Source: Comamonadaceae bacterium (lineage in GTDB: Bacteria > Pseudomonadota > Gammaproteobacteria > Burkholderiales > Burkholderiaceae_C). Taken from it: DNA of 40,995 bases. Shown one piece after another: positions 7,606 through 13,520 of the stretch. How positions within the stretch are numbered: the first letter of the stretch is position 1; each line of letters begins with the position of its first letter. Position numbers and translations under genes: made by a program. The DNA lies in the NCBI GenBank assembly GCA_021298995.1, contig JAJTGB010000036.1, positions 1 through 40,995 on the forward strand. Direction: 5' to 3'. Below the pieces are notes generated by a model. The model saw only the letters and a program-made list of their open reading frames with translations. It searched no databases and had not been told where the DNA came from.

Positions 7606-8142
7606 TCAGGCGTGGGCCTTTTGGTAGTTGGCAATGCCATCCAAGATTTCTTTCTTGGCTGACTCTGGGCCTTCCCAGCCCAAAATCTTGACCCACTTGC
7701 CCACTTCCAAATCTTTGTAGTGCTCAAAGAAGTGGGCAATGGTTTTCAAACGCAGTGGATTCAAATCTTCAGGTTTTTGCCATTGGGTGTAGATCGACAA
7801 AATTTTGTCGGTGGGCACAGCCAAGATTTTTCCGTCTTCGCCAGCTTCATCAAGCATTTTCAGTATGCCAATGGGACGACAAGGCACCACCACACCCGGG
7901 ATCAGGGGCACTGGCGTGATAACCAAGACGTCCACAGGATCGCCGTCACCACTGATGGTTTTGGGCACATAACCATAGTTGGTTGGGTAGTGCATGGCGG
8001 TGCTCATGAAACGGTCGACAAAAATAGCGCCAGTGGCCTTGTCCACCTCGTATTTCACAGGATCGGCATTCATCGGAATTTCGATGATGACGTTGAATTG
8101 TTCGGGAACTTTGCTGCCAGGGGTAACGTTGTCTAGGGACAT
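7606..8142 (-). CDS. ppa: inorganic diphosphatase (family I)
   Basis: 178 aa; [70 protein letters not shown]. Confidence 0.96.
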
Positions 8143-8214: not shown

Positions 8215-8243
8215 TTGCTTCTTCCGAACATTGCCCTTTTAAT
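8215..8243 (+). promoter_or_regulatory. candidate sigma70 promoter for hppA
   Basis: TTGCTT (8215-8220), 17-bp spacer, TTTAAT (8238-8243). Confidence 0.45.
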
Positions 8244-8282
8244 GCTTTAGTTGGCCAATCGACTCCTTGTGGGAGCGAGGAA

Positions 8283-8343
8283 GCAACGCAGGGAGGTGTT
8301 CCTCAAGCGTTGCACCTCCTCCTAGCAGTAAAAAACTAAGGAG
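8283..8343 (+). promoter_or_regulatory. structured hppA leader with interlocking stems and SD-sequestering hairpin
   Basis: GCAACGC (8283-8289)/GCGTTGC (8307-8313); GGAGGTG (8292-8298)/CACCTCC (8313-8319); CTCCTAG (8319-8325)/CTAAGGAG (8336-8343, includes the SD AAGGAG, one bulged A). Confidence 0.5.
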
Positions 8344-8351
8344 ATTGATTT

Positions 8352-10418
8352 ATGACAGGCAACTCAGCGTTGATTTTGGCGCTCGTTTGCGGGCTCATCG
8401 CCGTAATTTATGGCGTTTGGGCACGCGGTTGGATTTTGGCCCAAGACCCTGGCAATGCCCGGATGCAAGAAATTGCAGCCGCCATTCAAGCAGGTGCAGC
8501 GGCTTATCTGGCCAGACAATACAAAACCATTGCCATCGTAGGCGTCGTCTTGGCCATCCTCATGGGTGTGTTCCTGGACAGCATGACCGCCATTGGCTTC
8601 GTCATTGGCGCCGTTCTTTCGGGAGCCTGTGGTTTCATTGGCATGAACATCTCTGTTCGAGCCAATGTGCGCACCGCGCAAGCGGCCACAAAAGGCATCG
8701 GCCCTGCCCTTGATGTTGCATTCCGCGGCGGTGCCATTACTGGCATGTTGGTGGTGGGCCTAGGTCTTCTGGGCGTTACTGGCTTTTACTGGTTCTTAGC
8801 TGGCAATGGCAACCACACCCCAGACGTCAAATTGTCTGTCATCTTGAACCCCCTCATTGGCTTTGCCTTTGGCTCTTCCCTCATTTCCATCTTCGCCCGT
8901 TTGGGCGGTGGCATCTTCACCAAAGGTGCCGACGTGGGTGCCGACCTGGTTGGTAAGGTAGAGGCCGGCATTCCAGAGGACGACCCTCGCAACCCTGCCG
9001 TGATTGCCGATAACGTGGGTGACAACGTGGGCGACTGCGCTGGCATGGCCGCCGACTTGTTTGAAACCTATGCCGTCACCTTGATTGCCACCATGGTCTT
9101 GGGCTCACTCCTCATTGCCGGCGCGCCTGGCAATGCAGTGATGTACCCCCTCGCCCTAGGCGCTGTGTCCATTTTGGCCTCCATCATTGGTTGCTTCTTT
9201 GTCAAAGCCTCACCTGGCATGACCAACGTGATGCCCGCCTTGTACAAAGGTTTGGCCATTGCAGGCGTTTTGTCACTCATCGCTTTCTACTTCGTCACCA
9301 TTTGGATCATGCCGGACAATGCCATCACGGCCAGCGGTAGCCAAATGAAGTTGTTCGGTGCTTGCGCCGTCGGCTTGATTTTGACTGCAGCCTTGGTGTG
9401 GATCACCGAGTTTTACACCGGCACCCAGTACAGCCCTGTTCAACACATTGCACAGGCCTCCACCACGGGTCATGGCACCAACATCATTGCCGGCTTGGGC
9501 GTTTCAATGCGCTCCACAGCCTGGCCCGTGATTTTTGTGTGTTTGGCTATTTTGGCATCTTACAACTTGGCTGGTTTGTACGGCATTGCCGTGGCGGCCA
9601 TGTCCATGCTTTCCATGGCCGGTATCGTGGTGGCTTTGGACGCATATGGTCCTATCACCGACAACGCTGGCGGTATTGCCGAAATGGCAGAACTGCCCAG
9701 CAGTGTGCGCGACATCACAGACCCCTTGGATGCCGTGGGCAACACCACCAAAGCCGTGACCAAAGGCTATGCCATTGGCTCTGCAGGTTTGGCTTCCTTG
9801 GTATTGTTTGCCGACTACACCCACAAACTTGAAACCTACGGCAAAGCCATCTCCTTTGACTTGTCCGACCCCATGGTTATTGTGGGCTTGTTCATTGGCG
9901 GCCTCATTCCCTACTTGTTTGGCGCCATGGCCATGGAGGCCGTGGGCCGCGCAGCAGGTGCCGTGGTGGTTGAGGTGCGCCGTCAGTTCAGCGAAATCAA
10001 GGGCATCATGGAAGGCACAGCCAAGCCAGAATACGGCCGCGCTGTTGACATGCTGACCACGGCTGCCATCAAAGAAATGGTCATTCCTAGCTTGCTGCCT
10101 GTGGTGGTGCCTGTTGTGGTGGGTCTGGTTCTGGGCCCCAAAGCCCTGGGCGGCCTGCTCATGGGAACCATTGTGACCGGCTTGTTTGTGGCCATTTCCA
10201 TGTGTACCGGCGGCGGTGCTTGGGACAATGCCAAGAAATACATCGAAGACGGCCATCACGGCGGCAAAGGCTCAGAGGCTCACAAAGCCGCTGTGACCGG
10301 CGACACCGTGGGTGACCCTTACAAAGACACAGCAGGCCCTGCCATCAACCCGTTGATCAAGATCATCAACATTGTGGCCTTGCTCATTGTGCCTTTGATG
10401 ATGCAATTCCACGGCTAA
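8352..10418 (+). CDS. hppA: membrane-bound proton-translocating pyrophosphatase
   Basis: 688 aa polytopic protein; [83 protein letters not shown]. Confidence 0.97.
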
Positions 10419-10535: not shown

Positions 10536-11693
10536 GTGTCTGAACGCGTCATTCCCATCATCAGTCAGCCCCTCGGAAATTTGCCAGTTCCAGAGGTCTT
10601 GGAAGAGCACGCCTGGCAGTCTGGACACGTTATTCGAGATCAAAGAAAACGGCCCTTGCGCGATCTGCGAATCAGCGTCACGGACCGATGCAATTTCCGT
10701 TGCAGTTATTGCATGCCCAAAGAAATCTTCAACAACGACTACGTGTATTTGCCGCACAGTGCCCTGCTGAGTTTTGAGGAAATCACACGCACAGCGAAGA
10801 GCTTCATTGAACTAGGGGTTGAAAAGATTCGACTCACGGGTGGCGAGCCCTTGCTGCGAAAAAATTTGGAAATTTTGATTGAGCAGTTAGCCGCCTTGAA
10901 AACGCTTGAAGGTCATCCACTTGACATCACGCTGACCACCAATGGCTCTTTGCTGGCTCGCAAAGCGCAAGCACTCAAGGACGCTGGCCTAAAACGGGTC
11001 ACGGTAAGCTTAGACGGCCTCGACGACGCTGTTTTCAAACGCATGAACGATGTTGACTTTCCAGTCAGCGATGTACTTGAAGGCATTGAAGCCGCCAAAG
11101 CGGCCGGGCTTGGTCCCATCAAAGTCAACATGGTGGTCAAGCGGGGCACCAACGAACAAGAAATATTGCCTATGGCGCGGTATTTCAAGGGCAAAGGCAT
11201 TGCACTTCGATTCATTGAGTACATGGATGTGGGTGCAACCAACGGTTGGCGCATGAACGAGGTCATGCCAAGCGCCGACATCCTGAAGCTTTTGCAAGCC
11301 GAAATGTCGCTCATGCCGCTTGAAGCCAGCCAGCCCGGCGAAACCGCCGAACGCTGGGCTTATGTGAATGAACACGGCCAACACGAAGAAGCCTTGGGTG
11401 AAATTGGTTTCATCAGCAGTGTCACCAAGGCCTTTTGCAGCGATTGCAATCGCGCTCGCTTAACCACGGAAGGCCAGCTTTATTTGTGTTTGTTTGCCAC
11501 CCAAGGCTACGACCTCAAACCTCTGGTGCGAAGTGCTACAGACCCCAAGGCTTTGACGCACGCCATCGCCGCCATTTGGGCGCAAAGAGATGACAGATAC
11601 TCCGAGCTGCGCGTCTCAGAGCCCATGACAGGCGACCCCTCAACGCCCAGCGGCATCAAACGCAAGGTCGAGATGAGTTACATCGGTGGCTGA
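10536..11693 (+). CDS. moaA: GTP 3',8-cyclase MoaA
   Basis: Radical SAM motif [32 protein letters not shown]-terminal [21 protein letters not shown]. Confidence 0.96.
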
Positions 11694-11724
11694 CTGAGTT
11701 CCACGCAAAGAAACACTTTTATTT

Positions 11725-12348
11725 ATGAACGATCTCAGCATCACAGGATTGATATTGGCCGGAGGCCGAGGTGCCCGCATGGGCGGCGTCGACAAAGGAT
11801 TGCAGAACTTCAACGGGACGCCACTCACTCTTCACACCCTCATGCGCCTGCAAATGCAAGACGCAGCGACTCTGTCTGAGTTGATGGTTGTTGCCAATCG
11901 AAATTTGTCGGCCTACGAGTCTTTCGGCGTTCAGGTCTGGCCCGACAGCACCGATGGCTTTGCCGGACCACTTGCTGGATTTTTAACGGGACTGGAGCGT
12001 TGCGAAACAGATTTGCTGCTTACCGTTCCGTGCGATAGCCCTTTGTTTCCTTTGAATTTAACGCAACGCTTGCTAGATGATTTGATCGCTGAAGATGCCG
12101 AGATTGCAGTGGCCGCTGCCAAAGAAGAAGACGGCAGTGTTCGGGCACAACCCGTCTTTTGCTTGATGCGAGTGAGTTTATTAGAAAGCCTTGTGAAGTT
12201 CATGCAAACTGGCGGCCGAAAAATTGATGCCTGGACAGCTCAGCACAAAACAGTGCTGGTGCCCTTTGACACCGACGATGTCGATCCCAGAGCTTTCTTC
12301 AATGCCAACACCCTAGAAGAATTGCACCGCTTAGAACAATCCAAATGA
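11725..12348 (+). CDS. mobA: molybdenum cofactor guanylyltransferase
   Basis: GLILAGGRGARMGGVDKGLQNFNGTPL; FAGPLAGFLTGLE; LLLTVPCDSPLFP. Confidence 0.95.
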   Translation: MNDLSITGLILAGGRGARMGGVDKGLQNFNGTPLTLHTLMRLQMQDAATLSELMVVANRNLSAYESFGVQVWPDSTDGFAGPLAGFLTGLERCETDLLLTVPCDSPLFPLNLTQRLLDDLIAEDAEIAVAAAKEEDGSVRAQPVFCLMRVSLLESLVKFMQTGGRKIDAWTAQHKTVLVPFDTDDVDPRAFFNANTLEELHRLEQSK

Positions 12349-13520
12349 CACACTCACCGTCACTGGCTGACATTGCGGCCAAACTAGAAGCGTATGACCC
12401 TCAAGCGCTGCCAGCCAGCGAAGTCTTGAAGTTGCCGCCACATGACAACTCTGCCATGGACGGATACGCCTTTCATGGCTCTGCACTGAACAAGGCGCAA
12501 GCCCTGTCACTCAAAGTGGTTGGTACCGCTTTGGCCGGCAAAGCCTGGCAAGGTCAGGTCCAAGAAGGCGAATGCGTGAAGATCATGACGGGCGCCATCA
12601 TGCCTCAAGGCTTGAACACCGTGGTACCCCAAGAGCTTTGCAAGATGAGCGCCGAAAATGAAATTGAAATACCAGCTGGCCTGCTTCAAGTTGGCGACAA
12701 CCGCAGATTGTGCGGTGAGGACATCATGCAAGGCAAAGCGGCTCTCCACAAGGGTGCCTTGATTACCCCTGCGGCTGCCGGACTGCTAGCGAGCTTAGGC
12801 GTTCCAAGGGTGTCGGTGGTCAGACGCTTGCGCGTAGCCTACTTCTCTACGGGCGATGAAATTTTAAGTTTGGGTGAGTCTCCCAGAGAAGGCGCTGTCT
12901 ACGACAGCAATCGGTATACAGTGCATGGCATGTTGCAATCACTGGGTTGCGAGATGGTGGACATGGGGGTGGTCAAAGACGACCCCCTCTTGCTGGAACA
13001 AGCATTCAATCAAGCTGCCGAACAAGCCGACGCCATCATTACCAGCGGCGGCGTGAGTGTGGGAGAAGCCGACTTCACCAAAGCCATGATGAAAAAATTG
13101 GGCGATGTGGTGTTTTGGAAAATTGCCATGCGCCCGGGTCGCCCCATGGCGGTGGGGCGCATTCAAAAAGACAATCGGTCTGCTATTTTGTTTGGCCTGC
13201 CTGGTAATCCAGTGGCCGTCATGGTTACATTTTTGGCGTTCGTCAAACCAGCCTTGCTGAAAATGATGGGCAGCAGCGCAAGCCCTGAGCCCATGATGAG
13301 GGCCAAAACGCTGGAAGTCTTGAGAAAAAAACCGGGCCGAACCGAATACCAAAGAGGCCTTGTGTCGCGCAATGCCAATGGTGAGCTTGAAGTGGTGACC
13401 ACTGGCAATCAAGGCTCTGGTGTTTTAAGTTCCATGGTGCAAGCCAATGCACTGATTGTTTTGTCGCATCAACAAGGCACCGCCCAATTGGGTGATTGGG
13501 TAGACGTTCTGATGCTTTAA
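12345..13520 (+). CDS. moeA: molybdopterin molybdotransferase, apparently missing a conserved N-terminal segment
   Basis: PPHDNSAMDGYAF, YFSTGDEIL, YDSNRYTVHGML, ITSGGVSVGEADFTK, FGLPGNPVAVMVTF. Overlaps mobA by ATGA. The usual ALGRVLAxDV-type block before DNSAMDG is absent. Confidence 0.92.
   Translation: MTHSPSLADIAAKLEAYDPQALPASEVLKLPPHDNSAMDGYAFHGSALNKAQALSLKVVGTALAGKAWQGQVQEGECVKIMTGAIMPQGLNTVVPQELCKMSAENEIEIPAGLLQVGDNRRLCGEDIMQGKAALHKGALITPAAAGLLASLGVPRVSVVRRLRVAYFSTGDEILSLGESPREGAVYDSNRYTVHGMLQSLGCEMVDMGVVKDDPLLLEQAFNQAAEQADAIITSGGVSVGEADFTKAMMKKLGDVVFWKIAMRPGRPMAVGRIQKDNRSAILFGLPGNPVAVMVTFLAFVKPALLKMMGSSASPEPMMRAKTLEVLRKKPGRTEYQRGLVSRNANGELEVVTTGNQGSGVLSSMVQANALIVLSHQQGTAQLGDWVDVLML

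Follow-up and report, generated by a model that had tools for sequence, protein, structure and literature searches.

The window, the whole 40,995-nt stretch analysed here, comes from a Comamonadaceae genome (contig JAJTGB010000036.1) and encodes a membrane pyrophosphatase, HppA. The ppa gene is encoded on the minus strand at 7606-8142, divergent from hppA. Between ppa and hppA lie a promoter and then a 102-nt leader (Table 1), close to the length of about 100 nt given in a preliminary description of this locus. Downstream of hppA, on the plus strand, there is a cluster resembling genes for molybdenum cofactor synthesis (10536-13520; moaA-, mobA- and moeA-like, assigned by eye). The only match in the window at an Rfam gathering threshold is the bacterial small SRP RNA (RF00169; 25510-25606).

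Table 1. Features of the hppA gene and its leader, numbered from the first nucleotide of the window.
Feature	Position	Strand	Details
Promoter	8215-8243	+	-35 TTGCTT 8215-8220; 17-nt spacer; -10 TTTAAT 8238-8243; from sequence
Putative transcription start G+1	8250	+	Placed from its distance to the -10 box; G in 55/55 genera
Invariant 5' strand GUUGGCCAAUC	8250-8260	+	No variation at the first 10 positions across 55 genera; invariant columns in the A1 alignment
P1, variable terminal hairpin	8261-8276	+	Here CTCC 8263-8266 with GGAG 8272-8275; closing pair G8261-C8276
5' arm, alternative SD partner to P1	8261-8270	+	CTCCTTG 8263-8269 with TAAGGAG 8337-8343; swap z -5.2
Invariant core GAGGAAGCAACGC	8277-8289	+	3' strand of the 5' domain, P2 5' arm GAGG 8277-8280 and stem A 5' strand
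Stem A (S1)	8283-8313	+	GCAACGC 8283-8289 with GCGTTGC 8307-8313; 86.8% of cells paired
Stem B (S2)	8292-8319	+	GGAGGTG 8292-8298 with CACCTCC 8313-8319
P2 3' region and linker	8314-8335	+	CCTC 8315-8318 pairs with GAGG 8277-8280 in the minimum free energy (MFE) fold; weak support
Shine-Dalgarno (SD) AAGGAG of hppA	8338-8343	+	8 nt ahead of ATG 8352
hppA, K+-independent H+-pumping membrane pyrophosphatase	8352-10418	+	688 aa; closest solved structure 8b37

The type of pyrophosphatase was assigned from diagnostic residues. The GNTTKAVT motif of HppA aligns to GNTTKATTKG of 8b37, a K(+)-insensitive pyrophosphate-energized proton pump and the nearest solved structure, and this places Lys at position 12.46 and Thr at position 12.49. 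The combination of Lys 12.46 and Thr 12.49 is the mark of K+-independent H+-PPases (PMC10897367), and the protein in the window has both. By these residues and the closest structure, HppA is a K+-independent proton pump. The NCBIfam label for the product of 8352-10418 is sodium-translocating pyrophosphatase, a name that looks misleading given the same residues and structure. Full-length-like membrane pyrophosphatases that are approximately 50% identical are also encoded on two IMG/VR contigs (L310 and L311), which may be viral or misassigned.

The promoter proposed in the preliminary description, TTGCTT and TTTAAT separated by 17 nt, is present in the sequence. When one leader per genus was compared across 55 genera, a TANANT box was found at exactly -12 to -7 from an invariant G, so the register of the -10 box is kept; the -35 box showed no conservation across genera, and a simple sigma-70 scan did not detect a promoter. 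In the same leaders the invariant G is followed by TTGGCCAAT; the G and the -10 box were outside the search pattern, and the TTGGCCAAT block was demanded by the pattern for most leaders. Because the -10 box is conserved in register, the transcript most likely begins at G8250 with GUUGGCCAAUC. This probable start lies upstream, not downstream, of 8283, where the structures first described begin.

Across the 55 genera, the first block of the leader is an invariant GUUGGCCAAU. It is followed, from 5' to 3', by a variable hairpin (P1), an invariant GAGGAAGCAAC, stem A, stem B and the SD. Approximately 21 nucleotides are invariant, divided between two strands, and the columns of the core GAGGAAGCAACGC are invariant also among leaders that were fetched by protein alone. 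The interval initially delimited, 8283-8351, does contain stems A and B, but left out the most conserved part of the leader, 8250-8282. The invariant 5' domain formed by GUUGGCCAAUC...GAGGAAGCAAC, a competitor of stem A for CAAC, was missed. Specifically, GUUG 8250-8253 is able to pair with CAAC 8284-8287. This pairing never varies, so covariation can neither prove nor reject the helix.

Helices were evaluated with an alignment-free swap test, in which the arm of each leader is paired with its own partner versus that of another genus; controls gave z values of -0.4, -0.1 and -1.9. By this measure P1 is supported (z -4.3, 55 genera), and its closing pair changes among genera (G-C, A-U, G-U and U-A). 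The helix P2 has a z of -3.2 in the 55 genera. Stems A and B, both of 7 bp, occur where they were first reported, and C8313 is common to the two. The 3' strand of stem A, GCGTTG, is retained in 41 of the 55 genera, though it was outside the search pattern. Stem A is otherwise largely invariant, with one double-sided change (AACGA/UCGUU) in genus g31 (L266, L268, L273 and L274). The leaders of this genus are a topological variant in which stem B is nested within stem A and P1 is a short clean hairpin. In leaders L112, L115, L176-L179 and L215, an insert of ~20-50 nt separates the 3' strands of A and B, and both stems are retained.

The preliminary description had called for a covariation analysis; the arms of stems A and B proved to be conserved, and stem B covaries. 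We used our own R-scape-like test, in which substitutions are redistributed on a tree. In an alignment fitted to the covariance model, four stacked pairs of stem B lead the ranking of all column pairs (E 0, 0.013, 0.013 and 0.13). As that alignment is biased toward stem B, the test was repeated on a structure-blind MAFFT alignment, where stem B provides the top two of 5,460 pairs, yet with E values of only 0.75 and 1.3. RNAalifold found only the 5' domain in the MAFFT alignment because stem B is out of register there. The swap test gave z values of -11 to -12.6 for stem B (55 genera). Among the 18 most divergent leaders, stem B (z -3.6 to -5.3) and P1 (z -2.7) are still supported; the SD helix (z -0.6) and P2 (z -1.0) lose support. 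Overall, the conserved pairing with covariation that is expected of a riboswitch is found for stem B and is weaker for P1, the SD helix and P2. The other expected feature, a highly conserved core with variable helices in the 5' leader of an mRNA, is present.

The leader is unusually stable and is predicted to hide the SD, which precedes the start codon as first reported. The 125-nt leader region has a folding energy of -46 kcal/mol versus a shuffle mean of -33 kcal/mol (z -3.5), beating 200 of 200 dinucleotide shuffles. Averaged over genera, the probability that the SD is unpaired is 0.23, versus 0.41 in shuffles (p 6e-8) and 0.42 in element-less hppA leaders of other bacteria. In 95% of leaders the default fold pairs the SD, and the mean folding energy is -44 kcal/mol. 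SD burial, as originally claimed, is therefore above the level of controls, but its conserved partner is the 5' arm (approximately 8261-8270) and not the hairpin first proposed, stem C. The pairing of this arm with the SD is present in the MFE fold of the window leader and has a swap z of -5.2 (55 genera), although it is not obvious in genus g31. The complementarity of stem C (CTCCTAG 8319-8325 with CTAAGGAG 8336-8343) exists in the window but is not conserved (swap z +1.1), and we rejected it as a conserved SD sequestrator. Two other suggestions also failed: the CACCTCC taken for an anti-SD mimic occurs in just 3 of 55 genera and the GGAGGTG taken for an upstream decoy SD in just 1 of 55, so both are local by-products of the sequence of stem B.

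Two segments of the leader have competing partners. CAAC can pair with GUUG or within GCGUUGC, and the 5' arm can close P1 or bind the SD. Left unconstrained, the ensembles of 99 leaders place CAAC in stem A with a probability of 0.83 and pair the SD with a probability of 0.80. When the GUUG/CAAC pairing is imposed on these leaders, the mean cost is 7.2 kcal/mol and SD pairing drops to 0.60; several of the examples shown, including the window leader, then form stem B and P1.

The element has a narrow distribution. In a DNA search of 90 genomes of the window's genus, 56 gave matches; two essentially complete genomes of this genus (G002 and G022) have neither hppA nor the element. When hppA loci were fetched by protein alone, the same blocks were found ahead of hppA in Polaromonas, Ramlibacter, Hydrogenophaga, Variovorax, Rhodoferax, Diaphorobacter, Curvibacter and Extensimonas, and were absent in Methylibium, Leptothrix, Ideonella, Massilia, Oxalobacter and others. 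A pattern search recovered the element in 139 of 401 genomes of the family, with one site each and none for the reversed control. With a covariance model (R1) the count rose to 160 of 401 genomes, which fall in 66 of 141 sampled genera of the GTDB family. The hppA gene is present in 297 of the 401 genomes, including all 160 with the element, and none of the 104 family genomes that lack hppA has the element (Fisher p 1e-28). In every leader read, among which the weak match L276 (E 2e-4) is not counted, the element is directly upstream of hppA, and it was not found ahead of other genes in the 401 family genomes or in 300 genomes of the order. Outside the family, these 300 genomes yielded nothing convincing. 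Four weak matches outside the family are at chance level. The intergenic one of the four, in another family (L226, 1475-1640, E 0.004), is upstream of a cyanase-like gene; this region shows no conservation in 9 relatives and the match is probably due to chance.

Taken on comparative sequence evidence, the hppA leader is a real, conserved RNA that is uncatalogued in Rfam 15. We give a probability of roughly 0.6 to the interpretation that it is a clade-specific cis-regulatory RNA switch that acts at the level of translation at the 5' end of the hppA mRNA. Of the translation switch originally suggested, the cis-regulatory leader and SD burial are supported, and mutually exclusive pairings that control the SD are plausible; the leader is a strong orphan candidate for a ligand-binding riboswitch.

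A possible mechanism, the first two steps of which are partly supported, begins with a rod-like resting fold. This would comprise the helix of the 5' arm with the SD, GAGG paired with CCUC, and stem A, so that the SD is hidden and HppA levels are low. In the alternative fold, the 5'-terminal GUUG would pair with CAAC and displace stem A, the 5' arm would close as P1, stem B would form and the SD would be freed. Given the invariance of GUUG/CAAC, this fold is without covariation support. We speculate that a binder of the invariant GCCAA/GGAAG internal loop stabilizes the alternative fold and switches on HppA synthesis. As a guess, the likeliest binder is a small molecule or an ion linked to energy or pyrophosphate metabolism. 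The gene context gives no clue to a ligand because the element precedes only one gene. In R. rubrum, low energy and high salt induce the membrane pyrophosphatase (PMC11210485), which makes an energy- or pyrophosphate-related signal a reasonable guess, but no more than that. The bolder version, a new riboswitch class that turns on HppA translation in response to pyrophosphate or a metabolite reporting the energy state, with the first transcribed nucleotide as the start of its aptamer, is a tentative proposal that we consider possible but do not favor.

Instead of alternating, stems A and B might form at the same time, giving a compact H-type pseudoknot, either constitutive or stabilized by a ligand. 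We consider this somewhat unlikely, despite the fact that each stem has an arm within the loop of the other and both are conserved. Most leaders have 0 nt between the 3' strands of A and B (and one nucleotide is shared in the window), which would strain a pseudoknot of 7 + 7 bp. The exceptions are informative in the opposite sense: where the 3' strand of B is displaced by a further 30-50 nt, as in leaders of the L112, L115 and L176 type, a classical pseudoknot could form readily and neither stem is lost, and the nested arrangement in g31 would let the two coexist.

A less probable explanation is that the leader is a site for an RNA-binding protein or trans-acting small RNA, and a CsrA-like or dedicated repressor would fit. 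The GAGGA of the core (GAGGAAG) and the GGAG of the SD are GGA motifs, the SD is buried, and restriction to one clade and one gene is often seen for protein-controlled leaders. Yet the ~21 invariant nucleotides on two strands exceed what GGA motifs need, and no partner was identified. It is improbable that GTTGGCCAATC is a DNA operator at +1, with the remaining leader passive and its structure incidental. TTGGCCAA is a perfect palindrome at the probable start site, but invariance extends past the variable-length hairpin to GAGGAAGCAAC, and the covariation of stem B is at the RNA level. Moreover, for most of 22 genomes the 11-mer occurs elsewhere at about chance frequency, which gives no sign of a regulon. 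An RNA thermometer, in which SD burial melts with temperature, would account for the paired SD in default folds, but thermometers do not need invariant unpaired strands and the folds are very stable; we regard this explanation as very improbable. A conserved leader peptide is not supported, because loop lengths between invariant blocks differ by non-multiples of three (judged by eye); a count of SD-plus-start combinations was uninformative, as it also catches starts that overlap hppA.

The regulation of bacterial membrane pyrophosphatases has been little studied, and the translation switch proposed here is a well-delimited orphan leader RNA with testable competing helices. If a ligand is bound, it would reveal the signal by which these abundant freshwater and soil bacteria decide to draw energy from pyrophosphate.

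No Rfam 15 family matched the element at gathering threshold, either in the window leader or in 10 leaders. Literature searches returned nothing relevant on a riboswitch or RNA motif at hppA, or on mapped start sites, and hppA is unmentioned in the main text of three genome-wide noncoding RNA discovery papers. These results agree with the initial remark that no hppA riboswitch of this form was known in betaproteobacteria. The R. rubrum membrane pyrophosphatase belongs to the same enzyme family as HppA, but its control is reported as transcriptional, via RegA, and the review mentions no riboswitch (PMC11210485). The best sub-threshold Rfam match is the PreQ1 riboswitch (RF00522), also a small pseudoknot-like leader near an SD, but it scores 16.8 bits versus a gathering score of 39 and covers only 8322-8345, not the conserved core. 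The SAH riboswitch (RF01057) is known from Burkholderiales. This RNA has a CGAGGAG-like conserved stretch, as the element does, and a pseudoknot, which stems A and B may also form, but it was not matched up to an E value of 5 in the window leader and is associated with another gene. More generally, the hppA element resembles translational riboswitches in having an invariant core in a 5' leader and competing helices, one of which holds the SD. It differs from them in occurring at a single gene in one family, with an aptamer-like part that begins at nucleotide +1.
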